Shown one piece after another: positions 17,377-58,020 of a stretch of 64,000 nucleotides of DNA; position 1 is the first letter of the stretch; every line of letters starts with the position of its first letter. The stretch covers positions 1 to 64,000 of the forward strand of contig JADCFP010000103.1 in assembly GCA_020249465.1 (NCBI GenBank). The letters are read 5' to 3'. A model generated the notes under the pieces. It saw only the letters and a list, made by a program, of their open reading frames with translations. It made no database searches and had not been told where the DNA came from. Both the position numbers and the translations under genes were made by a program. This DNA comes from Roseomonas sp. (GTDB lineage: Bacteria; Pseudomonadota; Alphaproteobacteria; Acetobacterales; Acetobacteraceae).

Positions 17377-17622
17377 TCAGATCGGCAATGCCCCTTCCCC
17401 TCCCCCCCGCCTCACCCCCCAATAACAAACCCCAAACGCCGCCAAGCCGCCCAGCACGGAAGCCGCCACGTAAACCACCGCCAACCACGGCGCCCTTTCC
17501 CACAGCACGCCGGTTTCCAGTGAAAAGGCGGAAAAAGTCGTGAAACCGCCAAGCAGGCCCGTCACCAGCAACAGCCGCGCCTCACCGGAAATACCCAGCG
17601 CGCCAAACACGCCAATCAGCGC
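17377..17622 (-). pseudogene. crcB: Fluoride channel CrcB, 3' part, cut by the prophage
   Basis: Encodes the C-terminal part of the small fluoride exporter CrcB/FluC: ALIGVFGALGISGEARLLL followed by VTGLLGGFTTFSAFSLE, the conserved pore region, to the TGA at 17377-17379. The N-terminal part lies at 58,016-58,173. Joining 58,016-58,173 to 17,377-17,617 through the duplicated AGCGC gives an uninterrupted 132-residue CrcB reading NIIGSALIGVFGALG at the junction. Without it the lysogen cannot make a full channel from this locus. Confidence 0.92.
17618..17622. repeat. Target-site duplication, left copy
   Basis: AGCGC directly precedes the phage TG terminus at 17,623 and recurs at 58,016-58,020 directly after the phage CA terminus. 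Five bases is the duplication length made by Mu transposition. Confidence 0.92.
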
Positions 17623-17628
17623 TGTTCC

Positions 17629-17650
17629 TTGACACATCATTCTGAACATC
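17629..17650 (+). other. Putative transposase-binding site L1
   Basis: A 22-bp site beginning TTGACACATCATTC, 6 bp inside the left phage end. It fits a consensus of about TTGACAcATggTTCCGGACA shared, without gaps, by five sites near the two ends. Mu has its L1 site at the same offset. Confidence 0.75.
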
Positions 17651-17735
17651 CGGGATGAACCGGGATGATCGGGGACTTCGCGGGATAATTGTCGAGAAAA
17701 ATTGGGTTTTTTCGGAATGCGCACCCGAAAACGCC

Positions 17736-17757
17736 CAGATCATAGGTTCCGGACAAA
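17736..17757 (+). other. Putative transposase-binding site L2
   Basis: A 22-bp match centred on GGTTCCGGACAAA (17,745-17,757), 114 bp inside the left end. Only the second half of the consensus is well kept. The position resembles Mu L2. Confidence 0.6.
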
Positions 17758-17776
17758 AAATTAGTTTTCGCCGGTT

Positions 17777-17798
17777 TTGACATTGGATTCCGGACAAA
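17777..17798 (+). other. Putative transposase-binding site L3
   Basis: TTGACATTGGATTCCGGACA, the best match to the end consensus in both halves, 155 bp inside the left end, close to the spacing of Mu L3. Confidence 0.7.
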
Positions 17799-17831
17799 GA
17801 GGGGCATGGTTCTTAGCCTCTTAGAAGGTTC

Positions 17832-18554
17832 TTAAGAGCGTATCGGGCCGGCCTGCCAGATGACTTCGCCAAGCACGTTCAGGCTGCTGGTTTGGTCTGC
17901 GGGCACCACTTCACTCTCATAGACGGCGTTGTCTGACTTCACGACCACGGACCCATCCAGGCGGAGCTGGATGCGCTTGACCATGAGGGCGCCGCCGATC
18001 GCGAGGACGTAGATTCGGCTGCCTTCGATGCGGCGGGCGGATGTGTCCACCAGCAGCAAATCTCCGTCCCGGATGGTGGGGTCCATGCTGTCTCCGCTGG
18101 CGGTCAGCAGGGCCAGGTTTTGTGGTTTGCGGCGGAGCGTTTGCCTAAGATAAGACTCTGAAAACGCGATGAAATCTACGATATGGTCGCTGCTGAGGCC
18201 GCCGTGGTTTCCGGCCGCGGCGCGGGCTTCCACCAGGGGCAAAAGCACATAGCCAGGTGGCGCTGCAGGCGCGGTGACGAGCGGCTGATCCTGCTGCATC
18301 GGCCCTTCGCCGGTGGCGAGCCATTCCAGCCGAACGCCGGTGGCGCGGGCAATGGACGCAGCGTTCGAAAGCTTCAATTCGCCGCCCCGAATATAGCCCT
18401 GAAGCGTGCCGTAAGGCAGGCCTGAGAGGCGCGCGGCTTCGCGCGCAGAGCCGACATTTTTGATCGCTTCGCGCAGCCTTTCGACGCGTTCTTCAGTTCC
18501 ATGTTCGGGTTCCGAACATGGAACTGGAATTCCACCTTCCGTTTCCGCTTCCAT
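17832..18554 (-). CDS. LexA/CI-type prophage repressor with S24 peptidase domain
   Basis: Keeps the prophage silent by binding operators near the divergent early promoter. 240 residues. The helix-turn-helix is at about 35-65 (SAREAARLSGLPYGTLQGYI), and the S24 autoprotease domain follows, with Ser156 in SGDSMDP, Lys193 in MVKR and a likely cleavage site Ala-Gly at 114-115. The design implies SOS-type induction through RecA, unlike the Mu c repressor, which is Clp-degraded. The start at 18,554 has GAGGG upstream. It places a 33-bp palindrome inside codons about 10-20, so a shorter start is possible. An inverted CTCTTA/TAAGAG pair overlaps the stop codon. Confidence 0.9.
   Translation of the reverse strand: MEAETEGGIPVPCSEPEHGTEERVERLREAIKNVGSAREAARLSGLPYGTLQGYIRGGELKLSNAASIARATGVRLEWLATGEGPMQQDQPLVTAPAAPPGYVLLPLVEARAAAGNHGGLSSDHIVDFIAFSESYLRQTLRRKPQNLALLTASGDSMDPTIRDGDLLLVDTSARRIEGSRIYVLAIGGALMVKRIQLRLDGSVVVKSDNAVYESEVVPADQTSSLNVLGEVIWQAGPIRS
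18494..18526. promoter_or_regulatory. 33-bp perfect inverted repeat, probable operator
   Basis: Two 15-base arms, CAGTTCCATGTTCGG and CCGAACATGGAACTG, around GTT. A 14-base half-site CCGAACATGGAACT recurs at 18,617-18,630 in the repressor-ner gap. Position between the two regulators makes it the prime candidate for repressor or Ner binding. It lies inside the repressor reading frame. Confidence 0.7.
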
Positions 18555-18738
18555 CTTCGTTAATTCCCTCGAAAAATCAAAGAGTTATCAGATTTTCGGC
18601 AAGTGTGGTCGGGTGACCGAACATGGAACTACCGAATTATCAATTTTCCGCTTGCATAGTGGTCGGATTTCTGACAACATGATTTTACCAAACCGGAAAA
18701 CCGACCACCTGAAGGCATCACTTTTGCGCGCGAAACCC
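18555..18738. promoter_or_regulatory. Divergent early control region (repressor/ner)
   Basis: 184 bp between the divergent repressor and ner genes, more AT-rich than its surroundings. It holds the half-site at 18,617-18,630 and a GGTCGGGTGACC near-palindrome next to it. Early promoters must be here, but I cannot assign -35/-10 boxes with confidence. Confidence 0.6.
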
Positions 18739-19065
18739 ATGATCAAACCCTCCGCAGATTGGCACCCTGAGGACATTAAAGCGGCCATCCGGAAAACCGG
18801 CACGACGCTTTCTGACCTCAGCCGCGCGGCGGGCTTTTCTGAAGGTGCTGCCAAGCGCGCGCTGCTGACACCCTGGCCCCGGATGGAGGCCGCGATTGCT
18901 GCGCGCCTTGGCCGCGAGCCCCACGAAATATGGCCCAGCCGATATTCGCCTGACGGGCGACCCATGGCCGGGCTGCATATCAGGCGCCCCAAAAACCTAG
19001 CGCCTGCCACCCCACCCCGCAACGTCAGAAAAGCGAGAAACGATGAACACCGCGCCTATGCTTGA
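18739..19065 (+). CDS. ner: Ner-family early regulator
   Basis: A 108-residue DNA-binding protein. WHPEDIKAAIRKTGTTLSDL, RAAGFSEGAAKRAL, TPWPRMEAAIAARLG and EIWPSRY are the hallmarks of Mu Ner/Nlp, which dampens early and repressor transcription after infection. The ATG at 18,739 is chosen because it begins just before the Ner domain; 18,679 is an alternative with 20 more residues. The C-terminal 35 residues extend beyond the usual Ner length and overlap the next gene by 23 bp. Confidence 0.88.
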   Translation: MIKPSADWHPEDIKAAIRKTGTTLSDLSRAAGFSEGAAKRALLTPWPRMEAAIAARLGREPHEIWPSRYSPDGRPMAGLHIRRPKNLAPATPPRNVRKARNDEHRAYA

Positions 19066-19867
19066 GCCGATTGAACTGATCCCGGTGGATCAGATTATCG
19101 TCGAAGACCGCCTGCGGTCCGTGAACCCGGACCATGCCGCGCTGATCGCGGAAAGCTTTCGCGCCAATGGCCAGATGACGCCAATTGAGGTGCGGCGGCG
19201 CCATGGTGAAAGTGGATTCACTCTGATTTCCGGCGCGCACCGCCTGGAAGCCGCCAAGCTGGCCGAAATGGACCAGATTGCGGCCAGCATCATTGATGCC
19301 GATAAGGATCAGGCGCGGCTGCGTGAGATTGACGAAAACCTCTGCCGCCGCGACCTGACCGAGCTTGACCGGGCGGCATTCCTTGCCGAACGCAAGGTGG
19401 TCTGGGCAAAGCTAAATCCGGAAGCCGTTGTTTTTAAAAACAAAAAATCGCGGACAAATTTGTCCACGATTGGGACTTTCGCTGAAGAAGTTGCCGAAAG
19501 GCTGGGGCTTTCACGCCGGTCAATTGACCGCGCCATCAATCGCCACAACGCGCTGGTTGCCAGAGCCAGGGATATCCTGGCCCATTCCCGCTGGGCCGAT
19601 AATGGTTCCGTTTTGGATGGCTTGGCCAAGCTTTCGGCGCAGGATCAAATCAAGGCCGCCGAGGCGCTGACGCGGGAAGACAACCCCGCCCGCAACCTTT
19701 CCGCCGCCATTGCCGAATTCGCCCCCCGCCCCAAAGGCGCCGCCGCTGCCGAAGCCAATCAGGAATATGACCGGCTGATCACCGCCTGGCGCAAGGCCGG
19801 GCGTGTGGCGCGCAAGCGGTTCATTGATTTCCTGGTCGCCGAAGGTGAAATCGGGGGCGCGACGTGA
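19043..19867 (+). CDS. ParB-like nuclease-domain protein
   Basis: A 274-residue ParB/Srx-fold protein. Residues about 8-95 form the ParB N-terminal domain (IPVDQIIVEDRLR, MTPIEVRR, LISGAHRLEAAKLA), and a KorB-like helix-turn-helix follows (ERLGLSRRSIDRAINRH). Similar proteins precede the transposase in alphaproteobacterial Mu-like phages, where the function is not settled; regulation or transposition support is likely. Overlaps ner and the next small gene. Confidence 0.85.
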   Translation: MNTAPMLEPIELIPVDQIIVEDRLRSVNPDHAALIAESFRANGQMTPIEVRRRHGESGFTLISGAHRLEAAKLAEMDQIAASIIDADKDQARLREIDENLCRRDLTELDRAAFLAERKVVWAKLNPEAVVFKNKKSRTNLSTIGTFAEEVAERLGLSRRSIDRAINRHNALVARARDILAHSRWADNGSVLDGLAKLSAQDQIKAAEALTREDNPARNLSAAIAEFAPRPKGAAAAEANQEYDRLITAWRKAGRVARKRFIDFLVAEGEIGGAT

Positions 19868-19983
19868 TCCCGCCCCGCCGCCTGCTGCGCGCCGCGCTGG
19901 GCGGCGCGGCCTTTGCCGGGTTCACCATCGGCTTCTTCTGGTTCGGCACCCTGGCCTTCGTGGCCGCTGGCATCCGGCCCTGA
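19864..19983 (+). CDS. Small single-pass membrane protein
   Basis: 39 residues from a GTG that overlaps the previous stop (GTGA). A basic start (PPRRLLRAALGG) is followed by one hydrophobic helix. Overlap within the early operon supports it being real. Function unknown. Confidence 0.5.
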   Translation: MIPPRRLLRAALGGAAFAGFTIGFFWFGTLAFVAAGIRP

Positions 19984-19992
19984 GGCGCGGCC

Positions 19993-20442
19993 ATGGTGCG
20001 GCATCCCGGACAGCCTGACCTGTTGGATTGGCAGCCACCGGAAGCGGTGAAGCGCTTTCCGGAAGAACAGGTGCGCGCCGCCACCTTTGCAGCGCGGGTT
20101 TCCCGTGCGGTGGCGGTGGCGCTGGCAGATGCGGATGCAGAGCGTGAGGCGATTGCCGCGCGCATGTCGAGCTTCCTTGGCGAGCGTGTCTCACCGGCCA
20201 TGCTGGATGCCTATGCCAGCCAGGCGCGGGAAGATCACCGGATCAGCGTGCCGCGGCTCATGGCGCTTTTGCATGCCACGCGCGACCGCCGCCTGTTGGA
20301 ATTGCTGGCGGAGCCCATGGGCTGGGCAGTGATTGATCGCCGCCACCTGCCGCTGATCGAGGTCGCGGCCATTCGTGAACATGAAGATGAATTGCGCAAG
20401 CGCCGGGAATACCTGATGCGCAGCGCGCGGAGCGGCGCATGA
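19993..20442 (+). CDS. Conserved early Mu-like phage protein, function unknown
   Basis: 149 residues beginning QPDLLDWQPPEAV, with a helical body (SSFLGERVSPAMLDAYASQA, ISVPRLMALLHAT) and a charged C-terminus. I know similar proteins directly upstream of the transposase in alphaproteobacterial Mu-like phages but no function for them. It overlaps the transposase start (ATGATGA). Confidence 0.7.
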   Translation: MVRHPGQPDLLDWQPPEAVKRFPEEQVRAATFAARVSRAVAVALADADAEREAIAARMSSFLGERVSPAMLDAYASQAREDHRISVPRLMALLHATRDRRLLELLAEPMGWAVIDRRHLPLIEVAAIREHEDELRKRREYLMRSARSGA

Positions 20443-22430
20443 TGAATTTGGCGCAGACCGACCGCTGGTTCACCCTGGCCGAATTGGCCGCGCTTGACCT
20501 GCCCGGCATTCCCAACACACGGCGCGGCCTGGCCGTGCAGGCGGAACGCGAAGAATGGGGCCATGAAGCCGCCGAAGGCCGGTTGTGGCGGCGCCGCCAA
20601 GGGCGCGGTGGCGGCATTGAATACTGGATCGGCGTGCTGCCCAGCTTCACCCAGGCGAAGCTACTGGCGAAGGAAGCCGCCGCCACCGCCAAGCCCGCGC
20701 GCGATGCCGCGCTGCAAAGCTTAAGCGATGACGCCGCCTGGCAGGGTTATGATCGCGCGCCGGAAAAGCACAAGCAGCGCGCGGCGGAACGTGTGGCGGC
20801 GCTGGATGCGGTGGCGGCGCTGGTGGCGCAGGGCCAATCACGCAGCGTCGCCATGATGGAAGTGGCGGCGACGCACAAGGTTTCTCGCACCGCGCTTTAC
20901 GCCTGGGCTGCGCTGGTGGAAGACGCGCCGCGCGCGCATTGGCTGGCGCGGCTAGTGCCGCAATACGCGGGGCGCAGCGGGCCGCGCGCCGAATGCGCCG
21001 ATGATGCCTGGGAATGGCTGCGCGCGCGCTATTTGCTGCCGAACCGCCCGACCTTTGAAGCCTGCTGGCGTGATCTGGAACAGGTGGCGGCGCAAAAGGG
21101 CTGGGTGCTGCCTTCATCGCAGACGCTGCGGCGGCGCATTAATGCCCTGCCGGCGACGGTGGTGGCGTGGCACCGCGAAGGGCCGGATGCGACTAACCGG
21201 ATGTTCCCGGCGCAGCGGCGCGACCGTTCCATGCTGCACGCACTGCAATGGGTGAATGCGGATGGCCATCGCTTCGATGTGTTTGTGAAGTGGCCGGATG
21301 GCACGGAAGGCCGCCCGATGGGCGTGTTCTTCCAGGATTTGTATTCCGGAAAATTGCTGGCTTATCGCGTGGCGCAGGCCGAAACAGGCGACACCTTCCG
21401 CCTTGCCTTCAGTGATGTGGTCGAGAAATTCGGCATCCCCGGCGCGGTGACGATTGATAACACGCTGGCGGCGGCGAATAAGACCATGAGCGGCGGGTTG
21501 AAGCGGCGCTTTCGCTTCAAGGTGCGGGAAGAAGAACCGCTCGGCATCTTCGCCAGCCTTGGCGTCGCGGTGCATTGGGCCAAGCCGTTTTCGGGCCAGT
21601 CAAAGCCGATTGAGCGCGCCTTTGGTGATCTGGCGCGCGATGTGGCGCGCCACCCGGCCTTTGTCGGCGCCTGGACCGGCAATAAGCCGACCGACAAGCC
21701 ACACGACTACGGCAAGAAGGCCGTGCCCATCAGTGAATTCATGGCGGTGCTGGATGCCGCGATTGCCGAGCATAATGCGCGGCCTGGTCGCGCGGCGCTG
21801 AATTGCCGTGGCCGGTCCTTCGATGACACTTTCGCCGAAAGCTACGCCAGCGCGCCGATCACGCGCGCGACCGAAGCGCAGCGCCGCATCTTCCTGCTGG
21901 CGGCGGAAGAAGTGCGTGTGCGGCAGGATGCGACGATCCATCTGCTCGGCAATCGCTACCACGATCCGCGGTTGGTTGAACTGCGCGGGCGGAATGTGTC
22001 GCTGCGCTTTGACCCGGACAAGCTGCATGCGCCGGTGCATGTGTATTTGCAAAACGGCGATTATTTTTGCACCGCCGAATGCTGGGCCGATGCCGGCTTT
22101 GGCGATACGGAAGCCGCGCGCCGCACCGCCGCCGCGCAGCGCCAGCGCCGCCGTGGCCTGAAGCTGCTGGCCGATGCCGAAGCGCGCATCAGCGCGGAAC
22201 AGATTGCGCGCGATATCGCCGCCGCGCAGCGCGACATTCCAGACCCACCCGCACCGCAGATTGTGCGCCCACTTTTCCGTGGCGCGGTGGCGCTGAAACC
22301 CAAGGAACAGGAGGAAGAAACTTCGGAAGCGCGGTCCGAAAGGCTGTTTGTGGCAGCGCGCGCCAGCATGCGGCAGGGCCAGGCGCCCGCGCATCTGCGC
22401 TTGCTGAACACTGACGATCCCGAGGCGTAA
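20439..22430 (+). CDS. Mu-type DDE transposase A
   Basis: Catalyses replicative transposition of the phage genome. 663 residues, as in MuA. The N-terminal winged-helix domain (WFTLAELAALDLPGIPNTRR) recognises enhancer DNA. The catalytic core has Asp275 (NADGH), Asp340 (TIDNT) and Glu392 (PIERAFGD), almost the same positions as MuA D269/D336/E392. The C-terminal helical part would contact the B protein encoded next. Its binding sites are probably the 22-bp repeats at the phage ends. Confidence 0.95.
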   Translation: MMNLAQTDRWFTLAELAALDLPGIPNTRRGLAVQAEREEWGHEAAEGRLWRRRQGRGGGIEYWIGVLPSFTQAKLLAKEAAATAKPARDAALQSLSDDAAWQGYDRAPEKHKQRAAERVAALDAVAALVAQGQSRSVAMMEVAATHKVSRTALYAWAALVEDAPRAHWLARLVPQYAGRSGPRAECADDAWEWLRARYLLPNRPTFEACWRDLEQVAAQKGWVLPSSQTLRRRINALPATVVAWHREGPDATNRMFPAQRRDRSMLHALQWVNADGHRFDVFVKWPDGTEGRPMGVFFQDLYSGKLLAYRVAQAETGDTFRLAFSDVVEKFGIPGAVTIDNTLAAANKTMSGGLKRRFRFKVREEEPLGIFASLGVAVHWAKPFSGQSKPIERAFGDLARDVARHPAFVGAWTGNKPTDKPHDYGKKAVPISEFMAVLDAAIAEHNARPGRAALNCRGRSFDDTFAESYASAPITRATEAQRRIFLLAAEEVRVRQDATIHLLGNRYHDPRLVELRGRNVSLRFDPDKLHAPVHVYLQNGDYFCTAECWADAGFGDTEAARRTAAAQRQRRRGLKLLADAEARISAEQIARDIAAAQRDIPDPPAPQIVRPLFRGAVALKPKEQEEETSEARSERLFVAARASMRQGQAPAHLRLLNTDDPEA

Positions 22431-22461
22431 CCTCGGTTCATCCCCAAACCAAGGAACGATT

Positions 22462-23436
22462 ATGTCTGACCAAATTGTTGATGCCGACGAAATGGATGCG
22501 CTGCGCCAGCACATCCGCACAAAAATGGCCGAACGAAGCCTTGCGATGACAGATGTCGCGCGGCAGACCGGCATTCCCTACGGCACCTTTTCAAGCTGGA
22601 TGGGCAATACCTATCGCGGCAGGCAAAACCCCATCGCCGAACAGGCGCGGCATTGGCTGGCTGGGCTGGAAGCGGCGGACCGCACGCGCGCGCTGGCACC
22701 GAAGGCGCCGGGCTTTTTGCAAACGCCAACCGCGGGCGCCATTCTGGCCACGCTGGAACATGCGCAATACATGCCGGAATTTGTGGTGATCACCGGCGCG
22801 CCTGGTGTTGGCAAAACCAGCAGCGCGCGCGCTTATGCGCAGCGCAACACCAATGTTTGGCTGATCACGGCCGAGCCCACCATGTCCACCCCGCGCGCGG
22901 TGTTGGAAGAATTGGCGGAAGCGATTGGCGTGCCGGCGCGCGGGCTTTCCACGCAGCAGCTTTCGCGATCCTTGACCAAGCGCATGGCCGCCAGCCAGGG
23001 CCTGATCCTGGTGGATGAAGCGCAGCATCTGACCAGCCAGACGCTGGATCAGCTTCGCATGTTCTACGATTTGGCCGATATCGGTATTGGGCTGATGGGC
23101 AATGAAGCGGTGCATGCGCGGCTTGAAGGCGGCGCGCGCGCCGCGCAATTCGCGCAGTTGTTTTCCCGCGTGGGCATGCGGCTTTCCCGCCCGCGCGCGC
23201 TGAAAGGCGACGCCGAGGCGCTGCTGGATGCCTGGAATGTGCCCGGCAAGGAAGAGCGCGCCATGCTGCTGGCGATTGCCAAGCGCCCCGGTGCGCTGCG
23301 CAACCTGACCAAGGTGTTGCGCATGGCGCATTTGCTGGCCGGCGCCGATGGCGCGCAAGCGGTGGCCGAGCCGCATATCCGCATGGCCTGGGAAAGGCTG
23401 AGTGCGGGCGCGCCGCTGATGGCTGAGGCTGCGTGA
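22462..23436 (+). CDS. Mu-type target-capture AAA+ ATPase B
   Basis: DNA-binding ATPase that selects targets and activates transposase A. 324 residues. The N-terminal helix-turn-helix is at about 25-55 (MTDVARQTGIPYGTFSSWMG), Walker A is GAPGVGKTS (112-120), Walker B is LILVDEAQH with Asp185-Glu186, and the C-terminal helical domain starts at about 250. Located 31 bp after A. Confidence 0.93.
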   Translation: MSDQIVDADEMDALRQHIRTKMAERSLAMTDVARQTGIPYGTFSSWMGNTYRGRQNPIAEQARHWLAGLEAADRTRALAPKAPGFLQTPTAGAILATLEHAQYMPEFVVITGAPGVGKTSSARAYAQRNTNVWLITAEPTMSTPRAVLEELAEAIGVPARGLSTQQLSRSLTKRMAASQGLILVDEAQHLTSQTLDQLRMFYDLADIGIGLMGNEAVHARLEGGARAAQFAQLFSRVGMRLSRPRALKGDAEALLDAWNVPGKEERAMLLAIAKRPGALRNLTKVLRMAHLLAGADGAQAVAEPHIRMAWERLSAGAPLMAEAA

Positions 23437-23870
23437 TGAACGCCGGCGCCTTGGCAGAACTGCGCACGCAAGTGGATTTGCTGAGCCGCCGCGTGCGCGC
23501 GCTTGAGACCAACACGCGCGAATTGGCCGCGACCGCGCCGCCGGTGGCGATCAGTGACGTGATCGAAGCCGTGGCGCTGGAATTTGAAGTGACGGCGCTG
23601 GCCATCACTTCCTGCCGCCGCGACCGGCAGGTGGTGCTGGCGCGGCAGGTGGTGATCACGCTTTGCATTGACGTGATGAACATGAGTGTTTCGCGCGTCG
23701 CGCGCGCCTTTGGCAAGGACCGCGCGACGGTGCGGCATGCGTATCACGCGGTGTGGAAGCTGGACGCGGATGACCCGAATTTCCGGTCCCGCATGGAGTA
23801 TTTGCGGTGGAAGCTGAAGCACGCCGCGCCCCATCCAACCTTCAAAACAAAGGAAGCCCGTAATGGCTAA
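23433..23870 (+). CDS. DnaA domain IV-like DNA-binding protein
   Basis: 145 residues: a short coiled coil (TQVDLLSRRVRALETNTREL), then residues about 45-110 that resemble the C-terminal DNA-binding domain of DnaA (VALEFEVTALAITSCRRDRQ; VSRVARAFGKDRATVRHAYH). The signature RDRATVRHA mimics the GRDHTTVLHA motif that reads DnaA boxes. There is no ATPase domain. Placed between B and Gam, it could mark host or phage DNA for replication; this is inference. Confidence 0.72.
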   Translation: MMNAGALAELRTQVDLLSRRVRALETNTRELAATAPPVAISDVIEAVALEFEVTALAITSCRRDRQVVLARQVVITLCIDVMNMSVSRVARAFGKDRATVRHAYHAVWKLDADDPNFRSRMEYLRWKLKHAAPHPTFKTKEARNG

Positions 23871-24381
23871 GAACAAGCGCGCGGCGGAAACCGCGACGCC
23901 GCCTGTTAATCGAGACGAGGCGGAAACCTATCTGGCGCGCCTCGGTGAAATCCAGCGCCTGACGCAGTTAAACAAGACCGCGCTGGCGGAAGCGGTGGCG
24001 CGCGTGACGGCTGATATCGAAGCATCCAGCGCGAAGCTCGGCGAAGAACATGACCGGCTGTTTCGCGGCCTTCAATTATGGGCGGAAGCGAACCGCCACG
24101 CCCTGACGGATGGCGGCAAAACCAAGACCGTGCGGCTTGGCAATGGCAGCATCGCGTGGCGCCAGGCGCCGCCTTCCGTGCAGATCAAGGGGCAGGAAGC
24201 GGTGCTGGCCTACCTGATTGAGAAAAAGGGCGAGGAATTCCTGCGCACCAAAGTGGAAATCAACCGCGAAGCGATGCTGGCGAACGCGGAGCAGGCATCC
24301 AAAATCCCCGGCGTACTGATCAAAAGCGCCGGCGAAAGTTTTGTCATTGAACCCATTGGCCAGAAGGAGATGGCAGCATGA
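23863..24381 (+). CDS. gam: Gam-like host-nuclease inhibitor
   Basis: A 172-residue Mu Gam family protein, which coats DNA ends as a Ku-like dimer and blocks exonucleases. A helical N-terminal half (YLARLGEIQRLTQLNKTAL) is followed by the conserved core LRTKVEINREAMLANAEQA and SFVIEPIG. The order B - small gene - Gam follows Mu-like phages. Confidence 0.9.
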   Translation: MAKNKRAAETATPPVNRDEAETYLARLGEIQRLTQLNKTALAEAVARVTADIEASSAKLGEEHDRLFRGLQLWAEANRHALTDGGKTKTVRLGNGSIAWRQAPPSVQIKGQEAVLAYLIEKKGEEFLRTKVEINREAMLANAEQASKIPGVLIKSAGESFVIEPIGQKEMAA

Positions 24382-24578
24382 GCGGCAATACACAATCGCT
24401 GGATCAGGTGATCAAGCGCATCGTCGGTGCGGCCTTCGATGCCGGTGTGCAGGCGGCGACCCGCCCGCGCGCGGAGCGTGACAGGCAGCGGCTGGATCAG
24501 GCGGACTTTGCCGCCGTGATGATCCGAGGGCAGGTGGATGCTGAGCGCGCGAAGCCCGCGAATGAGAACGCCGCATGA
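24378..24578 (+). CDS. Small hypothetical early protein
   Basis: 66 residues, charged and helical, with no recognised domain. It overlaps Gam and the nuclease gene by four bases (ATGA) on each side, which supports translation. Function unknown. Confidence 0.55.
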   Translation: MSGNTQSLDQVIKRIVGAAFDAGVQAATRPRAERDRQRLDQADFAAVMIRGQVDAERAKPANENAA

Positions 24579-24946: not shown

Positions 24947-24949
24947 GCC

Positions 24950-25516: not shown

Positions 25517-25737
25517 TGCCCCGGACCATTGATCGCGAATGGCAGGAACTGGTCGCCAAGGCCGATGCGCAAGACATCCGCGAATTGGCGATGCTGGCCT
25601 TGGAAATGCGCACCGCGCAGCGGCGCTACTTCGCAGACCGTCAGCATCTGCACCTGGTGCAGGCCAAGAATGCGGAGCGCGACTTCGACAATCACGTGAA
25701 GCGGCTGCGCGCGCCGCAGCGGGGGCTTGTCCTATGA
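25513..25737 (+). CDS. Small hypothetical early protein
   Basis: 74 residues from the ATG at 25,513, which overlaps the previous stop (ATGATG); its own stop overlaps the gp16 start (ATGA). Helical and charged (DAQDIRELAMLALEMRTAQRR). No recognised domain. Confidence 0.6.
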   Translation: MMPRTIDREWQELVAKADAQDIRELAMLALEMRTAQRRYFADRQHLHLVQAKNAERDFDNHVKRLRAPQRGLVL

Positions 25738-26658: not shown

Positions 26659-26660
26659 TG

Positions 26661-27164: not shown

Positions 27165-27229
27165 CGTTGTTCCTCCGTTGAAACGCGGCCTCTTATCGCC
27201 TGCTTTTACCGCGCGGCGCAAGCATTTCC

Positions 27230-49245: not shown

Positions 49246-49248
49246 GCG

Positions 49249-50613: not shown

Positions 50614-50624
50614 GGAAGAAAAAC

Positions 50625-51473
50625 ATGCAGCGCGTCAGTAGAGCATCAGCCGTCGCCAGCCTGCCATCGCCGCCAGCCGGCGGCACACCAGGCTATTTCA
50701 CGGGTGGGAACCCCGGCGTGGGCCAGCCCGCCACCGTGCCGGGCTATGAGTGGTTCAATGCCGTGCAGGAGGAATTGCTGGCCGTCATCCTGCGCGGTGG
50801 GTTGACCGCATCCAATACGGATTTGGCGCAGGTGCGGAAATCCTTGGACCGGCTGTTTGGCGGTGGCGTGGTCAGCTATTCGGCCAATACCACACTCACG
50901 GTGGATGATGCCGGCCTGGTGCTGGTGAATGCCAGCGGCGGCGCGCGCAGCATCACGCTGCCGGCAGCGAATGCGCTGGGTGGACGGCCCATTCAATTCC
51001 GCATCGTGAAAAGCGACAACAGCGCGAATGCGGTCACCATTCAGCGTGCCGGGACAGACAGCATTGAAGGCGGCACATCTGTCCTGCTGCGTTATCAGTG
51101 GGAGAGCCTGACGCTGTTATCGGATGGTACTGGCGCCTGGGTCGTGGTTGGCGCTGGTGGTGGCAGTCGCAGCCTGGCTAATCCAGGTTGGGCATTGTTG
51201 CCGGGCGGGCTGATGTTTCAATGGGGCACAGTTTCAGGGACGGTCGGTGCGCTGTCGGGTGGGGAAGCGTGGGTATTCCAGACCGCGGCTTATCCGCTTT
51301 CATTCCGAAATGCGGCAGTTTTCGCGAGTGTCACGCCATACGACGTTTTGGGCCAGGCGAATGAGCGGGCCTGGATCAACGCCGCGCCTGGACAATCCAG
51401 CATGTCTGTCGGCCTGTCCTGTAATATCGCGGGCGCCGCCATGACCGCAGGGTACCTCGTTATCGGATATTGA
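50625..51473 (+). CDS. Tail fibre protein with gp53-like C-terminus
   Basis: 282 residues. N-terminal baseplate-attachment segment GYFTGGNPGVGQPATVPGYE, WFNAVQEELLAVI; middle beta-structured shaft (LTVDDAGLVLVNASGGARSI, TLPAANA); C-terminal part (GWALLPGGLMFQWGTVSG) resembling the receptor-binding end of prophage tail fibres (gp53-like). Determines host range. The ATG at 50,625 has GGGAAGAA upstream. Confidence 0.85.
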   Translation: MQRVSRASAVASLPSPPAGGTPGYFTGGNPGVGQPATVPGYEWFNAVQEELLAVILRGGLTASNTDLAQVRKSLDRLFGGGVVSYSANTTLTVDDAGLVLVNASGGARSITLPAANALGGRPIQFRIVKSDNSANAVTIQRAGTDSIEGGTSVLLRYQWESLTLLSDGTGAWVVVGAGGGSRSLANPGWALLPGGLMFQWGTVSGTVGALSGGEAWVFQTAAYPLSFRNAAVFASVTPYDVLGQANERAWINAAPGQSSMSVGLSCNIAGAAMTAGYLVIGY

Positions 51474-51792
51474 GGAGAGAGACCGTGACTCATTTGGCCC
51501 ATTTTGATGCCGAAGGCCGCGTGCGCGGCTTCTACATCCCGGAAAATCATGGCGATGCCATTCCTGAAAATGCGGTGGAGATCACCGAGGAAAGCCACGC
51601 GGCCGCGCTTGTCGATACAGGGCGACAGCTATTGAGGAGAGAGACCGTGACTTATTTGGCCGATCTTGATGCCGAAGGCCGCGTGCGCGGCTTCTACACG
51701 CCGGAAATTCATGGCGATGCCATTCCGGAAGGCGCGGTGGCCATTTCGGCAGAAATCCACGCTGCCTGGCTCGCGAATACACAGCGGCAGCG
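51469..51792 (+). repeat. 162-bp tandem duplication including a Shine-Dalgarno and GTG
   Basis: ATTGAGGAGAGAGACCGTGA at 51,469 recurs at 51,631, and high similarity continues through GATGCCGAAGGCCGCGTGCG and CATGGCGATGCCATTCC. The unit is a multiple of three, so the frame is kept. Confidence 0.88.
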
Positions 51793-52135
51793 CTGGAATG
51801 GTGAAGCGCTGGAACCCTGCGATCCACCACCGCAGCCGCCACCACCACCCGTGACGGATGTGAGTTTCTGGCAATTCATGATGGCGGCGTGGAAGCTGGA
51901 CTTCATCACCCATGCCGAAGCACTGGCCGCGGTGCGGTCGCGCATCATGCCGCCTGCTTTTGTCACCGCGATTTCTGGCCTGCCGGAAGCCGCGCGGCTG
52001 GAAGCGGAGCTTAAATTCGCCGGCATCACGCGGATGCTGCGATCCGACCCGATGTTTGCCCTGGTCGTGGCAGCGAATATCGCGACCGATGAACAGATTG
52101 ATGGCGTCTTTTCCGTCGCCGCCAGCATCGCCTGA
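51485..52135 (+). CDS. Tail fibre assembly-like protein with internal duplication
   Basis: 216 residues from GTG at 51,485 with GAGGAGAG upstream. The N-terminal unit (FDAEGRVRGFYIPENHGDAI) is repeated 54 codons later (LDAEGRVRGFYTPEIHGDAI). A proline run (PPPQPPPPP) and a C-terminal helical domain (VSFWQFMMAAWKLDFITHAE, AALAAVRSRIMP) follow. The C-terminal half resembles proteins encoded after Mu-like tail fibres. A second GTG at 51,647 has its own copied ribosome-binding site and could start a 162-residue form. Confidence 0.75.
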   Translation: MTHLAHFDAEGRVRGFYIPENHGDAIPENAVEITEESHAAALVDTGRQLLRRETVTYLADLDAEGRVRGFYTPEIHGDAIPEGAVAISAEIHAAWLANTQRQRWNGEALEPCDPPPQPPPPPVTDVSFWQFMMAAWKLDFITHAEALAAVRSRIMPPAFVTAISGLPEAARLEAELKFAGITRMLRSDPMFALVVAANIATDEQIDGVFSVAASIA

Positions 52136-52150
52136 AAAGGGGGATAAGAC

Positions 52151-52576
52151 ATGTCCGGTTCCATCTTCAATAAGTTCAACCGCTTTGTCGCAGACCTGGC
52201 GAATGGCGTGCACAACCTGGGCAGCAACCAGCTGCGCGTGATGCTCACCAATACCGCGCCGGTGGCCACCAATGGCCTGCGCGCCGATATCACGGAAATT
52301 GCGGCGGCTGGCGGCTATGCTGCAGGCGGCTTCGCGGTGACTGTCACGTCTTCCGCGCAGACCGGCGGCGTGCATCGGTTGATCGCGGATGATATTGTGG
52401 TGACACCCACCGGCGCGGGCTTTGGGCCGTTCCGCTACGCGGTCCTGTATAATGACACGGCGGCGAATGACCCGCTGATTGGCTGGTGGGATCGCGGCAG
52501 TTCCGTGAGCGTGGCGCCGCCCGATACCTTCACCCTGGATCTGAGCGCGACGAATGGCGTGCTGCAGATCACCTGA
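52151..52576 (+). CDS. Phage structural protein, unknown
   Basis: 141 residues: FNKFNRFVADLANGVHNLGS, NQLRVMLTNTAPVATNGLRA, FRYAVLYNDTAANDPLIGWW. Mostly beta. Similar proteins occur among tail genes of alphaproteobacterial phages and prophage-like elements; role unknown. Confidence 0.7.
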   Translation: MSGSIFNKFNRFVADLANGVHNLGSNQLRVMLTNTAPVATNGLRADITEIAAAGGYAAGGFAVTVTSSAQTGGVHRLIADDIVVTPTGAGFGPFRYAVLYNDTAANDPLIGWWDRGSSVSVAPPDTFTLDLSATNGVLQIT

Positions 52577-52579
52577 CCC

Positions 52580-52987
52580 ATGCAGCAATTCCTGACAAAA
52601 CTGCGCCTGGTGCTGGCCGAATTGGCCAGGCCGGGTGCCATGCGTGACGATTGGTTTGCCTGGGCGGCAGGCCAGACGGCGCATCTCGCGATCGGCGCCG
52701 TGCTGGCGGGGGCGCTGTTGTTCTTCCTGCCGGCGCTTTGGGCATTTGCCGTGGCCGCGCTGGGCTATGCGCTGGCCAAAGAAGTGCCTGATTATTTCCG
52801 CGCGCCGGGGTGGGCTGGCGCGCGCGATAGCATCCAGGATGCGCTGTTTGTCACCGCCGGTGCGGCATTGGCTGTGGCCATCGGCGGCGCGCATGACCGG
52901 CTGTTTGCCGTGGCGGTGGGCGCGGCGGTGGTTGGGCTGGCGCTTGGGATTTTGGCGCGCATGGCGCGCGGGGGGAATGGAAAATGA
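52580..52987 (+). CDS. Multi-pass membrane protein
   Basis: 135 residues with about four hydrophobic segments (LAIGAVLAGALLFFLPALWA, FAVAALGYALA, ALFVTAGAALAVAIGG, AVAVGAAVVGLALGILARMA). Membrane proteins among fibre genes may act in superinfection exclusion or as a second holin; no sequence support for either. Confidence 0.6.
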   Translation: MQQFLTKLRLVLAELARPGAMRDDWFAWAAGQTAHLAIGAVLAGALLFFLPALWAFAVAALGYALAKEVPDYFRAPGWAGARDSIQDALFVTAGAALAVAIGGAHDRLFAVAVGAAVVGLALGILARMARGGNGK

Positions 52988-53448
52988 CAAACCGGGTGCG
53001 GATTGCGACGAAAGACGCGCAAGAAATCCTGCTGAGCAGCGGCGAATGGGCGGCGATTGTCATGGCGGCGGAAAATGCTGGCCTGCCAGCAGAGCTGCGC
53101 GGCCTGTGCATCAACGTCCGCGACACGGTGCGGCAGAGCCTGGTGATCCGCATGGATGATCCGGTCATCGCCGCGCGCATCGAAGGCGCGCTGGGCGCAC
53201 TGGTGGGTGTTGGCCTGCTTTCAGAAGCCACGCGCGATGCGCTGCTGGCGCTGGCAGAGCCCAGCGCGGCGCCAATCGACCCGCCGCGCGTGAGGTTAAA
53301 CAGGGGCCATCCGGTGCTGAATGGCGCCATGGTGGTGCTCAATACCGGCGAATATCGGTTGGATGAAGCGGTGGAATGCGCGCGCGCCGATGCGCCGGAT
53401 CAAAGCTACTGCGCGTTTTTGTGTTCAACGATTGTGGGAGAATCTTGA
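52984..53448 (+). CDS. Hypothetical phage protein
   Basis: 154 residues beginning VRIATKDAQEILLSSGEWAA; no recognised domain. It overlaps the membrane-protein gene and touches the next start (53,449), so it belongs to the same transcript. Confidence 0.6.
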   Translation: MTNRVRIATKDAQEILLSSGEWAAIVMAAENAGLPAELRGLCINVRDTVRQSLVIRMDDPVIAARIEGALGALVGVGLLSEATRDALLALAEPSAAPIDPPRVRLNRGHPVLNGAMVVLNTGEYRLDEAVECARADAPDQSYCAFLCSTIVGES

Positions 53449-55584
53449 ATGAAAGCCGCAGTCGAACAGGTGTTTGATGGCAGCCTAACGCAGGTCGCGA
53501 TTGGTGGAGCTTACGACGCCAGCAAGATCAATCGTGGCAAGCACACCGGGCAATTCAATCTTGGCGCTGGCCTGGTGGACCGCTTCGTTGGCCCGGCGGC
53601 GGTGGGGGTTGCGAATTTTGGCGAGTCCCCGCAAGCCATTCCTTCTCCTTTTATTCACGTCGTCAAAATCACCGATGATCTATTCTGGATTTTCGGCGCT
53701 GACGCGGCGTCACCCGCAGTGACCCGGCGCGTGCAGCTTTGGACCTTCGTGCCGTCCACCAATACCTACACTTTTGCCGGGTTCATTGTTTTGACCTTCC
53801 CCACCACAGGGAACGTCACCGCGCGCGGCCTGCGCGCCATCTTGGAAAATTACACGGTTGGGACGGTCGGCGTATCTGGCACGGCGGTCACCGGAAGCGG
53901 CACGTCCTGGGCCACGGGCCTTTCAGTCGGGTCGCGCATTGGGTTTGGGTCCACGGACCCGATGCAGATCACGACCTGGTATCAGGTCAGCGCCATTGGG
54001 TCAGACACCAGCATCACACTCACCGGCAGCGCTGGCACGATTGCCGCAGGCTCGCCTTACGTCATTCAAGACCTCATGATTGTGCATGCAAATTCAAATG
54101 GCACGAATGGCGGGCTGTTCGTGGCCAAGGGTCTTCGATATGAGGACTTCGCGCCGACAGGTAATACTATCCCGGCAGCAACGACCATTGATAAAATCAA
54201 GGCAGTTTATTGGCTGAAGGACGCGGGCACCATAACGAATACCACGATTGGTGGTTGCGCGCTGGGTGATCGCGATAGCTGGACGCAGCAATATGTATAT
54301 GCTTCCGATGGCGCTGGCACGGTACTGAAGCTATTTCGCTATAATATCCGCGCGCCGTTGACTTCGCTTGGCGCAGGGGCCTTCGTTTTGACTGGCACAG
54401 ATATTGTGGTGACCGGCAACCAGTCGGTCACTGGCAATATCACGCTTGTGAACAACGGCAGGGTGGCCACGCTCAATCATGGTCCGGGCAGCGGTGTACC
54501 TTCACTATATCTTTTGACCTCAACGCGTGTCGTGCGGGTGCCGCTTTCTGCGATTGTTGCGAGCAGCACGACCTTTGTCGCGGACAGCATGAGTGAGGTG
54601 CCGCCCGGCGGCGGAAACACAAATTTATCAGTCAGCACGCTCACAACGATGGATGTCGCAGGGTCGATCGACAAGCTGGTAATCACTTCGGTGGCAGACA
54701 GAGGCACGATCTACATCACGGATTATTATACGGGTGGGCAGCAGATCGACCGCCGCGCTGGCTGCCTGGCGTCGCAGTTGCCTTCGGCGCTGCGCGACAC
54801 GGATAGCCCTATTTTCGTTCATAGCTTGGGGGGGCAAACGCCCTTTGTCTGGGTTGAAGATGGCTGGTTGTTCCATCTCTATGCGCAGTCGAGTACCACC
54901 AACCTCAACGCCTTGTCAGCCTACCCGCTGGCGGCGGATGCGGATTTTCAGGCTGATGTGAATAATCGGGTGATTTGCCCCAAGATCACACTTGGCGCCA
55001 CACCTGCCAAACTTTACCGCGCGCTGGTGAATGCGGCGGAAAATATCGGCGGCTATCTGATGGGGGTCGCGCCGGACATGTTCCGATTGCAGGTGCGCAC
55101 TTCCGGCATTGATGACAACAGTGGCACATGGACCGATGTGGCACCGAATGGGGATTTGTCTGGGCTGGGCACGCCGTCGGCTATCCAATTCGCTTTTCAG
55201 TTCCGCACGGCTGGCGTGATCATGCTGCCCGCGCGGGTTCTTTCGCTGGCGCTGATTTATGAGACCGATGATGCGCTGCCATCGCAGTATCGCTGGAACT
55301 TCGCGGATAGCGATCAGGCGAATGGCACCTTTGGCTTCACCCAGGCTGCACTTTTCGGCGCGGCGCCTGGCCTTCACACCATCAATATTTATCGCGCTGA
55401 CACGAATGCGCTCGTGCTGACGCAGGCTTCCAGCGGCACCACGAATGGAAATTTCCAGTATTGGAACGGCACCGCCTGGGTGAATGGGTTGGGTAGTGAC
55501 GTGGTGGGCACGCGCCGGCGCTTTGTGCCGACCGGCAGCCTGCCATCTGGCGTTGACCTTTATGCGACGGTGACGGTGGCCTGA
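53449..55584 (+). CDS. Large tail-associated structural protein, unknown
   Basis: 711 residues, almost all beta-forming and threonine/glycine-rich. An Ig-like or fibre-like segment (GTVGVSGTAVTGSGTSWATG) lies near 140-200. Aromatic-rich strands suggest a beta-propeller or fibre (FVWVEDGWLFHLYAQSS). The C-terminal part includes NGNFQYWNGTAWVNGLGS. 54,100-54,800 is less GC-rich than the neighbours. Probably a virion surface protein that meets the receptor; no catalytic motif seen. Confidence 0.65.
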   Translation: MKAAVEQVFDGSLTQVAIGGAYDASKINRGKHTGQFNLGAGLVDRFVGPAAVGVANFGESPQAIPSPFIHVVKITDDLFWIFGADAASPAVTRRVQLWTFVPSTNTYTFAGFIVLTFPTTGNVTARGLRAILENYTVGTVGVSGTAVTGSGTSWATGLSVGSRIGFGSTDPMQITTWYQVSAIGSDTSITLTGSAGTIAAGSPYVIQDLMIVHANSNGTNGGLFVAKGLRYEDFAPTGNTIPAATTIDKIKAVYWLKDAGTITNTTIGGCALGDRDSWTQQYVYASDGAGTVLKLFRYNIRAPLTSLGAGAFVLTGTDIVVTGNQSVTGNITLVNNGRVATLNHGPGSGVPSLYLLTSTRVVRVPLSAIVASSTTFVADSMSEVPPGGGNTNLSVSTLTTMDVAGSIDKLVITSVADRGTIYITDYYTGGQQIDRRAGCLASQLPSALRDTDSPIFVHSLGGQTPFVWVEDGWLFHLYAQSSTTNLNALSAYPLAADADFQADVNNRVICPKITLGATPAKLYRALVNAAENIGGYLMGVAPDMFRLQVRTSGIDDNSGTWTDVAPNGDLSGLGTPSAIQFAFQFRTAGVIMLPARVLSLALIYETDDALPSQYRWNFADSDQANGTFGFTQAALFGAAPGLHTINIYRADTNALVLTQASSGTTNGNFQYWNGTAWVNGLGSDVVGTRRRFVPTGSLPSGVDLYATVTVA

Positions 55585-55585
55585 T

Positions 55586-56467
55586 ATGGGCCTGCGCGCG
55601 GGGGGCGGCCCGCTCCTCCTCCGGCGTGATTTGGGGCTGCCTGGACCAGTTCAGGGGCAGCAGGCGTCCGGCGCCGCGCTGATTGGTGCGCGGCTGGCGG
55701 CGGCAGTCATCGGCACGGTGCGGATGCGCGCGGGGGATGGCCCGTTTTCTCTACGAATTCCGGCGTCGGGTGGTGGCGTCATTTTGGTGGCGAATGCCGG
55801 CGCCTTCACCCTTGCCGCGCAGGAAGCGGCGCTGCGGGTGGATCGGCGCGTCATGGCGGAAGCTGGCGCCTTTGCCCTGGCCGGGCAGGAAGCCGCGCTG
55901 CGGGTGGATCGGCGGGTGGTGGCGGAGGCCGGGGCCTTCACGCTGGCCGGGCAGACCGCCGATTTTATCATCACCACGCCGCCTGCGGGCATCGTTTTTG
56001 TCGCGAATGCTGGCGCCTTCACCCTGGCTGGGCAGGATGCCGCGCTGCGGGTGGATCGGCGGGTGGTGGCGGAGGCCGGGGCCTTCGCGCTGGCGGGCCA
56101 GGATGCGGCGCTTAGGCTTGATCGGCGGCTGGTGCTGGAAGCTGGCGCCTTCGCGCTGATCGGCCAGGATGCGGCGCTGCGGCGCGATATTCGCCAGGTG
56201 GTGCAAGTGGGTGCGTTCACGCTGGCTGGGCAGGAAGCGCTGCTGAGCGTGGCGCGGCGCCTGGTGGCAGAGGCCGGCGCATTCGCGCTGGCGGGGCAAG
56301 ATATCGAATTCGTGGTGCCGGGTTCCGGTGGCCTGGTGGTGGCGCGGCTGGCGCGCAGGCCAGCGCAGATCGCGCGGCCGTGGCATAGGCCGGCCGTGAT
56401 TGGGCTGCCATCTGATGCGCCGCGGGTCGTGGTGCGGCTGATTATTCGGGGGGACGACAATCTATGA
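55586..56467 (+). CDS. GAFxLAGQ tandem-repeat protein
   Basis: 293 residues. Between about 65 and 250 there are eight copies of a roughly 22-residue unit with core AGAF-(T/A)-LAGQ-(E/D)-AALRVDRR, each predicted to make two strands. Short non-repeat ends flank them. Such repeats build extended fibres or beta-solenoids. It starts 1 bp after the large structural gene. Confidence 0.75.
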   Translation: MGLRAGGGPLLLRRDLGLPGPVQGQQASGAALIGARLAAAVIGTVRMRAGDGPFSLRIPASGGGVILVANAGAFTLAAQEAALRVDRRVMAEAGAFALAGQEAALRVDRRVVAEAGAFTLAGQTADFIITTPPAGIVFVANAGAFTLAGQDAALRVDRRVVAEAGAFALAGQDAALRLDRRLVLEAGAFALIGQDAALRRDIRQVVQVGAFTLAGQEALLSVARRLVAEAGAFALAGQDIEFVVPGSGGLVVARLARRPAQIARPWHRPAVIGLPSDAPRVVVRLIIRGDDNL

Positions 56468-56751
56468 ACGCTGCGAAGTATTGGCAGGGGCAGTCAGTGG
56501 AACTGCGCGCGCTATTCCTGAGTGCGGTTGGCGTGCCGCTGGCCGCCGGCGGCGTCAGCTTCCGGGTGAAGAAGCCGGATGGCGCGGTTTTGACGGTCGC
56601 TGCCAGCCCCGATCCGGCGCGGGCGAATGAATTTGTGGGCGTGCTGGTCGCGGACCAGGCGGGGGTTTGGCAGGTCAAGGCATCCTGCCAGACGCCGGCG
56701 CCTGCCGTGGAACAAAGCACGTTTACAGTAATGGCATCCCTCCCCGGCTAG
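56464..56751 (+). CDS. Small beta-sandwich protein, unknown
   Basis: 95 residues with an Ig-like pattern (QSVELRALFLSAVGVPLAAG, VSFRVKKPDGAVLTV, GVWQVKASCQTPAPAVEQST). The last gene of the tail operon. Its stop codon overlaps the first base of the structured RNA candidate. Confidence 0.7.
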   Translation: MNAAKYWQGQSVELRALFLSAVGVPLAAGGVSFRVKKPDGAVLTVAASPDPARANEFVGVLVADQAGVWQVKASCQTPAPAVEQSTFTVMASLPG

Positions 56752-56823
56752 GCGGGGGTCCTGGCCGCTGACACGGCCTGGAACCGAGAGAAAGCACCTC
56801 TCACGGGTAGAACCCGCCCCGCC
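56751..56823 (+). ncRNA. Candidate four-way-junction structured RNA
   Basis: Fully nested complementary stems: P1 56751-56757 (GGCGGGG) with 56817-56823 (CCCCGCC); P2 56758-56767 with 56774-56784, ten pairs with one U-U mismatch and a bulged A; P3 56786-56790 (GAGAG) with 56798-56802 (CUCUC) around a 7-base loop; P4 56804-56808 (CGGGU) with 56812-56816 (ACCCG). Only two junction bases are unpaired. An alternative hairpin (56742-56746 with 56753-56757) would compete with P1 across the stop codon. It is not a tRNA (no T-loop, no U33). A further hairpin AACCT-AAAG-AGGTT follows at 56,850-56,863. Confidence 0.5.
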
Positions 56824-56895
56824 CGCGCCGGGCCGGCAAAGGGGGGCATAACCTAAAGAGGTTGCCTAAATGGTAACGGCTGAACTGACCCCGGG

Positions 56896-57015
56896 GTGCG
56901 GAAGTGCTTTGCTGGGTTTGCGATGGAAGTGGTGGAGACGACCTACGCCATCGGCTACCGCACCGGAAAGGACACCCAGAAGGTGCGTGAGCTGCTGATT
57001 TCGAATGGCGGCTGA
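56896..57015 (+). CDS. Tiny phage protein
   Basis: 39 residues from GTG at 56,896, or 30 from ATG at 56,923 (MEVVETTYAIGYRTGKDTQK). The protein-like composition and position after the structured RNA suggest it is translated; the start is uncertain. Function unknown. Confidence 0.45.
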   Translation: MRKCFAGFAMEVVETTYAIGYRTGKDTQKVRELLISNGG

Positions 57016-57027
57016 GTGAGTGATGGG

Positions 57028-57053
57028 TGGCGCCAGTCTGAGGGCTGGCGCCA
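57028..57053 (+). terminator. Strong hairpin after the tail operon
   Basis: Perfect 9-bp arms TGGCGCCAG and CTGGCGCCA around an 8-base loop, 13 bp after the tiny gene. No clear T-tract. Probably ends the late transcript and insulates the right-end module. Confidence 0.6.
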
Positions 57054-57099
57054 TTCGCTCAAGGGGTGCTTAAAAGGTGCTTGAGAGGTCGTTTTTCGC

Positions 57100-57128
57100 T
57101 TGACTCGTTACACTAAAAGTGTAGTGTG
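57100..57128 (+). promoter_or_regulatory. Right-end promoter with embedded dyad
   Basis: A -35-like TTGACT at 57,100-57,105 and, 17 bp on, a weak -10 position (AGTGTG). Between them lies the dyad TACACT-AAA-AGTGTA (57,109-57,123). A dyad between promoter boxes is the usual place for an autorepressor; the HTH protein encoded downstream is the natural candidate. Confidence 0.5.
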
Positions 57129-57174
57129 TGGGTGTGACGGCGGGATTGGCCCGCTGGAAAGAGGAGACAGCCCG

Positions 57175-57441
57175 ATGACTGATGCTCAGAAACTCTGCGA
57201 AGCTTTTTGCCAAACGCTCGACAAAACCTTTCGCGCGGGATGTGCGGTGAATCCGGCACAAAATATGGCCCGTTGGGCCGCGCGGCACACGAAGGGCTTT
57301 GAAATTCTGGGAAACGAAAAGTGGCTTGATGGGCAGCGGAAATGGGTGCGCTGCCCGGATGGAAGCCGCTTCGCCTACTCTTTCGGCGACCCGATGGTGC
57401 AGGCGCAAGCTTGGGCCGCACCAGCTGAAGCGGCGGCTTAA
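57175..57441 (+). CDS. Small right-end accessory protein
   Basis: 88 residues with good Shine-Dalgarno GAGGAG 8 bases upstream of the ATG. EAFCQTLDKTFRAGCAVNPA, FEILGNEKWLDGQRKWVRCP; three cysteines, small and compact. First gene after a private promoter and before an HTH gene, the layout of anti-CRISPR operons. No family recognised. Confidence 0.65.
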   Translation: MTDAQKLCEAFCQTLDKTFRAGCAVNPAQNMARWAARHTKGFEILGNEKWLDGQRKWVRCPDGSRFAYSFGDPMVQAQAWAAPAEAAA

Positions 57442-57452
57442 GGAGGGTGCAG

Positions 57453-57515
57453 ATGACCAGCATGAACATCCCCGCCACCCAAAACCATGAATGGGGCCTG
57501 ATCCGGCATCGGTGA
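57453..57515 (+). pseudogene. 20-codon remnant with strong ribosome-binding site
   Basis: ATG at 57,453 follows AGGAGG by 6 bases and encodes MTSMNIPATQNHEWGLIRHR. The start (NIPATQN-EWG) looks like a small family of longer alphaproteobacterial plasmid/phage proteins, so this is probably a truncated relic. Low certainty. Confidence 0.35.
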
Positions 57516-57549
57516 TGGCCGGGTTGGAGAAAGAGAGGGCTTAAGCTGA

Positions 57550-57942
57550 ATGACCCCGTATCGCCTTTTGTTATCGCGCGTCGGCCTGTCGCAGGCTGAC
57601 GCGGCCACCCTGCATCAGGTGCGGCTGGACACGATTAAAAGCTGGTGCGCTGGCCGGGCGCGTGCACCGGTTGGCGTGATCGCGGAATTGAGGACGCTCT
57701 ACGCGCGGCAGAAGAAGGCCGCCGCTGAGGCCCTAGAGATGATCTCTGAACGGCCCGAAGTCGGCCAGATCGAACTAGGCTATGCGGTGGATGACCATGA
57801 GGCTGCGGGTATGGGCTGGCCCTGCGCGGCTGCCCAATGGACGAGCCTCGGTATGGTGGTGGCGGCTTGCGACCGCCCCGTGTCACTGGTGCCGCGAGGC
57901 ACCACAATGGCCACCGCAGCGGCTGCTGATCAGCATCTTTGA
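57550..57942 (+). CDS. Right-end HTH regulator, Aca-like position
   Basis: 130 residues. Residues about 1-45 ([34 protein letters not shown]) form a helix-turn-helix. The C-terminal part ([39 protein letters not shown]) belongs to no family I can name. The last phage gene. It probably controls the right-end promoter at 57,100. Followed by a T-run at 57,952-57,957, 24 bp before the R2 site. Confidence 0.68.
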
Positions 57943-57965
57943 GGGCTCTTTTTTATTTGCGGACA

Positions 57966-57987
57966 GGGGTGCGGAACCATGTGTCAA
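57966..57987 (-). other. Putative transposase-binding site R2
   Basis: Minus-strand 22-bp site beginning TTGACACATGGTTCCGCAC. It abuts R1 with no gap, as adjacent Mu R sites nearly do. Confidence 0.7.
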
Positions 57988-58009
57988 ACTGTCCGGAACG
58001 TTGTGGCCG
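57988..58009 (-). other. Putative transposase-binding site R1
   Basis: Minus-strand 22-bp site containing AACGTTCCGGACAG; good in the second half of the consensus. It starts 6 bp inside the right phage end, the same offset as L1 at the left. Confidence 0.7.
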
Positions 58010-58015
58010 GCTACA

Positions 58016-58020
58016 AGCGC
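58016..58020. repeat. Target-site duplication, right copy
   Basis: AGCGC immediately after the phage CA terminus at 58,014-58,015; matches 17,618-17,622. Confidence 0.92.

Follow-up and report, generated by a model that had tools for sequence, protein, structure and literature searches.

We are highly confident that the 40,393-bp element described here is a Mu-type transposable phage inserted in crcB, the fluoride channel gene, of a Roseomonas-like bacterium. In the window, by which we mean the whole 64,000-nucleotide stretch of DNA analyzed, the element runs from TG at 17623 to CA at 58015 and is enclosed by two copies of AGCGC (Table 1); in a scan of 140 x 140 boundary pairs around the ends, these termini were the only TG...CA combination flanked by identical 5-mers. 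Counting from the crcB start codon, whose first base is 58173, AGCGC is preceded by 51 whole codons, and the cut falls in codon 53. As it stands, the frame of the 5' part runs into phage DNA and stops after 96 amino acids, while the two flanks, fused with a single AGCGC between them, form an uninterrupted crcB frame of 132 amino acids that contains NIIGSALIGVFGALG. The initial annotation had described TG...CA termini with AGCGC on both sides and a crcB that rejoins in frame once the element and one repeat are deleted; the coordinates of the former proved exact to the base, and the open 132-residue frame bears out the latter. Its assignment of the insertion to the Mu type is supported by the termini, the 5-bp repeat, and the Mu-type gene set, and its prediction that full-length CrcB is lost, which it limited to this locus, is supported as well. 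Loss of the crcB copy at the window locus is near certain.

Table 1. Features of the prophage, its target gene, and the right flank (window coordinates)
Feature	Coordinates	Strand	Basis
crcB 3' part, 81 codons + stop, one AGCGC counted in	17377..17622	-	Pfam, rejoined frame
Left 5-bp target duplication AGCGC	17618..17622	.	Sequence
Mu-type prophage, 40,393 bp, TG...CA	17623..58015	+	Termini, PHROGs matches
Phage repressor (phrog_4)	17832..18554	-	PHROGs
ParB-like protein (phrog_3264)	19043..19867	+	PHROGs
MuA-type transposase (phrog_310, 663 aa)	20439..22430	+	PHROGs, E 4.4e-149
MuB-type DNA transposition protein (phrog_296)	22462..23436	+	PHROGs, E 3.3e-76; adjoins transposase
DnaA C-terminal DNA-binding domain protein (PF08299)	23433..23870	+	Pfam
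Mu Gam-like end protection protein (phrog_491)	23863..24381	+	PHROGs
Late transcriptional activator (phrog_836)	27230..27598	+	PHROGs
Endolysin (phrog_465)	27656..28072	+	PHROGs
Terminase small subunit (phrog_426)	29650..30222	+	PHROGs
DNA methyltransferase (phrog_67)	30404..31105	+	PHROGs
Terminase large subunit (phrog_2)	31102..32679	+	PHROGs
Portal (phrog_113)	32893..34434	+	PHROGs
Minor head protein (phrog_220)	34431..35681	+	PHROGs
Head protease, scaffold, major head protein (phrog_976, 673, 1005)	36636..39153	+	PHROGs
Contractile tail sheath and tube (phrog_165, 185)	40645..42494	+	PHROGs
Tape measure, hub, baseplate genes	42921..49245	+	PHROGs
Baseplate wedge and tail fibre region	49249..55584	+	PHROGs
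Right 5-bp target duplication AGCGC	58016..58020	.	Sequence
crcB 5' part, first 51 codons before AGCGC	58021..58173	-	Rejoined frame
rarA-like gene 3' fragment	58173..58441	-	Homology to relatives stops at 58436-58441
tRNA-Lys	58946..59021	-	Rfam; 3' end is the edge of the PPIases/coaD/gyrA locus

The element carries the set of Mu-type genes listed in Table 1, with PHROGs matches for 41 of the 50 phage open reading frames (ORFs) scanned (cut-off E 1e-3 or 1e-5, depending on the gene block). Integration-type matches among these 50 were confined to the transposase and the transposition protein, and NCBIfam gave no match for the transposase. The latter is 38.3% identical to the Mu transposase over 69% of the query; the best-ranked named phage reaches 44.8% identity over 83% of the query, and all 162 records lie below 60%. 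That best-ranked phage is Microcystis phage Mwe-Yong1 (L128, MZ436628.1), whose listed host is Microcystis; we would guess that its true host could be a Microcystis-associated bacterium and that the prophage hosts considered here may live in Microcystis colonies. In a difference from Mu, PHROGs gave no invertase for any of the ORFs scanned, and a search for an inverted fibre cassette returned nine inverted-repeat pairs, none of them convincing. The Mu-like lysogeny seen here is real, well formed, and ordinary for such a phage.

The empty site is preserved in relatives. In the four best-matching ones, the intact crcB locus aligned to the joined flanks with zero gaps, at 95.8% identity over 505 bp (L030), 95.1% over 506 bp (L027), 93.5% over 504 bp (L032), and 88.9% over 506 bp (L031); the loci of the remaining relatives matched more weakly (66.6 to 85%) and over shorter stretches. 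Within the 200 bp centred on the junction, no gap was opened in any of eight loci (six over the full 200 bp and two over 196 bp, at 88.3 to 97.5% identity). The comparison with phage-free relatives proposed in the initial annotation thus gave a gapless match to the rejoined sequence, and the mismatch that would have spoken against the insertion was absent. At the protein level, the rejoined CrcB is identical to that of L030 at 123 of 124 residues and then carries an 8-residue C-terminal extension, because homology to the relatives is lost near 17397, a little before the 3' end of the gene. The name crcB rests on Pfam family PF02537 (Fluc/CrcB), which scores above its cut-off in both halves in the window, at positions 1 to 44 and 33 to 99 of 103; the window holds the family in these two parts only, whereas the empty site yields the full-length open frame. 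The NCBIfam crcB model TIGR00494 gave 78.9 bits on the intact protein of L030, against a cut-off of 80.45.

By analogy with Mu, the phage would have integrated at codon 53 of crcB through MuA/MuB strand transfer, the target being cut with a 5-bp stagger, and repair of the staggered ends would have duplicated AGCGC. Of a CrcB of about 130 residues cut at residue 53, what remains is a 96-residue chimera of 53 CrcB residues and a phage-encoded tail, together with a C-terminal CrcB part that has no start region of its own. Functional Fluc channels are antiparallel dimers, according to PMC3755343, so half a CrcB protein is not expected to work, and neither remnant of the gene split by the phage would be expected to form the dimeric channel. 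Both fragments are therefore probably nonfunctional, and the phage itself is presumably active.

The right side of the locus is rearranged with respect to relatives, which means that more than a single phage insertion happened here. The left flank of the cut gene (7219-15208) is the context found in relatives. On the right, 504 bp beyond the end of homology in the rarA-like gene come tRNA-Lys, two PPIases, coaD, and gyrA. In every one of the 10 relatives tested, the match to this tRNA-Lys/gyrA locus starts at one and the same base of the tRNA, and the locus lies on a different contig from crcB in all nine relatives that have both, although these are drafts and distance is not proven thereby. 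At the Rfam gathering threshold, the whole window gave a match to this tRNA only. In G005, G007, G020, and G031, the rarA-like gene comes next to crcB, and beyond it lies sequence that in the strain studied here belongs to its contig C101; in L030, one base is shared between the rarA-like stop and the crcB start. The name rarA is our own reading, the NCBIfam AAA-family ATPase and RarA models all being below their cut-offs. On C101, the strain has a near-complete rarA-like gene whose frame stays open from the start codon as far as the end of the contig, which lies 11 bp ahead of the position at which crcB starts in relatives. The 3' ends of this gene and of the window fragment (58173-58441) are 93.4% identical over 257 bp, and so represent two copies and not an assembly overlap. 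Genome G024 presents a similar picture, with crcB next to a truncated rarA-like tail on both C8 and C31, at differing junctions, and with C39 ending in a rarA-like gene and the initial 47 bp or so of yet another crcB. Near the rearranged end on G024 C8, where an integrase was expected, the eight ORFs scanned (of 20 listed from 150 amino acids up, with overlapping frames among the 20) match metabolic families instead.

The fluoride sensitivity suggested in the initial annotation, with its possible selection for or against lysogens, is less well supported than the insertion and depends on whether there is another CrcB. The initial annotation had suggested searching for a second gene; in the draft genome of the strain (162 contigs, 97.5% complete), neither the Pfam family nor a relative's protein at E values up to 10 found anything beyond the two halves in the window. 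Because C101 breaks off 11 bp ahead of where crcB would start, a second crcB may nevertheless be missing from the draft, and the two rarA-like 3' ends suggest that it may follow the longer rarA-like gene. It falls a little short of an even chance, in our judgment, that the interrupted crcB is a displaced or duplicated copy and that a working one lies just past the end of C101, in which case the lysogen would not be fluoride sensitive. The pairing of a 3' fragment in the window with a near-complete gene on C101, the divergence that marks the two rarA-like ends as separate copies, the one-base overlap of the two genes in L030, and the similar case of G024 all favor this account; against it, no piece of crcB other than the two halves was found in the genome, and the left flank is in the context that relatives have.

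We regard it as nearly, but not quite, an even proposition that the lysogen instead has no working CrcB, is hypersensitive to fluoride, and is selected against where fluoride is high. Here the argument is that the cut crcB is the only one found in the genome, that the genome has no match to the CLC family (PF00654), and that Pseudomonas putida lacking CrcB is restricted in growth already at 0.25 mM NaF, as reported in PMC13104614. Against this are the 162-contig state of the draft, in which one contig end coincides with the possible site of a second crcB, and the fact that crcB was matched in 27 of 34 same-genus genomes and not in the other seven, although those seven are all in 320 to 520 contigs. 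No fluoride riboswitch was found in the genome among the 150 of 984 first-look candidates that were scored, in a search whose control was positive in 4 of 14 genomes. The chances that the strain has lost all CrcB are about even.

The same observations allow a broader and more tentative reading, which we think could be right but would not expect to be: in these Roseomonas-like bacteria, the junction of crcB with the rarA-like gene may be a recurrent rearrangement point. Copies of crcB with a short rarA-like 3' tail would have arisen there by duplication and been attached at various sites in the chromosome (tRNA-Lys/gyrA in the window, a run of metabolic genes on G024 C8), a variable gene slot would directly adjoin the stop codon of crcB, and the phage would have inactivated one spare copy.

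Several other features of the flanks were recorded. The slot beside the crcB 3' end (15332-17246) encodes a DUF5131 protein and a three-Cys-motif partner protein (TcmP); TcmP is over its NCBIfam cut-off, and the two match the candidate defence models PDC-M30/M41. The same slot holds a TPR-repeat protein (Pfam) in one G024 copy and, in G005, a 491-amino-acid ORF that resembles a TPR protein on visual inspection. One block of related sequence, at most about 400 bp long, occurs in three places on one contig (14773-15208, 58509-58888, and, in the numbering of contig C6 of the strain, 73058-73237); it also adjoins the variable slot in relatives and contains one 94-amino-acid ORF with no Pfam match. 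Finally, 58439-58482 is a short dispersed repeat, roughly 40 bp long, that has numerous matches in the genome.

Sister prophages provide independent evidence on the insertion. This transposase occurs in 6 of 35 genomes of the genus, the strain's own included, with seven matches in all, and relatives at 89 to 90% identity are found in three Roseomonas sp. metagenome-assembled genomes. Both ends are readable in the window and in three sisters (G007, G034, and G003), and all four show a perfect 5-bp repeat, AGCGC in the window and GCCAG, ATCAC, and GCCAA in the respective sisters, which start with TGTT, finish with TACA, and lie at loci other than crcB. The crcB genes of these three hosts are open and on contigs other than the prophage's, which makes them a phage-free comparison. 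Mu prefers NYSRN at its target, and AGCGC fits this less well than do the three sister sites, a point that counts against the Mu-type reading. An assembly or binning chimera at the junction is very improbable: the window does come from a 162-contig draft, three of its kin are metagenome-assembled genomes, and the right flank switches context at 58441, but the 5-bp repeat is exact at canonical termini, and the same termini were recovered independently in the sisters.

Insertions with a readable left end numbered nine (the window; G007, G034, and G003; two in G001, whose right ends are unreadable because the copies run into contig ends; and the viral contigs L089, L123, and L126), and they lie at different places. 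G033, on a cut contig, was left out of this count. A relative of the transposase was present on 10 viral contigs in total, and the 7 besides L089, L123, and L126 were likewise left out. Over the viral contigs as a whole, the left-end pattern occurred in 45 stretches, of which only the transposase-linked ones were taken further; in 385 genomes of the class, a sample without other genomes of the genus, it was found in the strain's own genome only. It is scarcely credible that this phage uses crcB as a preferred, site-specific attachment site, as the idea has no support beyond the window case, only one of the nine insertions is in crcB, and the only integration-type PHROGs matches of the 50 ORFs scanned are the transposase and the transposition protein.

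Our literature search found no paper on a Mu-like insertion in crcB; the excerpted text of PMC3125207 contains both terms and draws no link between them. With its base-exact empty sites in relatives, this clean natural insertion is useful for placing this phage group and for the study of its target choice, and if there is no second crcB, the strain is a natural fluoride-channel knockout in an environmental bacterium. Judging from isolate names, we think that the three metagenome-assembled genomes perhaps come from the Microcystis colony study PMC8477515.

Among the closest known systems are the sister prophages on JADCEX010000084.1 and JADCFQ010000007.1, both from Roseomonas sp. metagenome-assembled genomes, which share with the window prophage a transposase at 89 to 90% identity, a largely colinear genome, and the same termini, while differing in insertion site and in a fibre region that is divergent or partly missing. 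Tblastn matched 47 of 49 phage ORFs in the window in at least one of these two sisters, the exceptions being the methyltransferase and a 113-amino-acid ORF at 57100; several fibre-region matches were partial or in one sister only. The alignment of the ORF at 25539 crosses two stop codons in both sisters, and that of the ORF at 32893 crosses one in G034, stops that may stem from the start codons chosen. With Escherichia phage Mu and Mu-like phages, the prophage shares MuA, MuB, Gam, and the late activator, the head and contractile tail genes, TG...CA ends, a 5-bp duplication, and insertion within host genes. Unlike Mu, it carries a ParB-like protein, a protein with a DnaA C-terminal domain, and a DNA methyltransferase.
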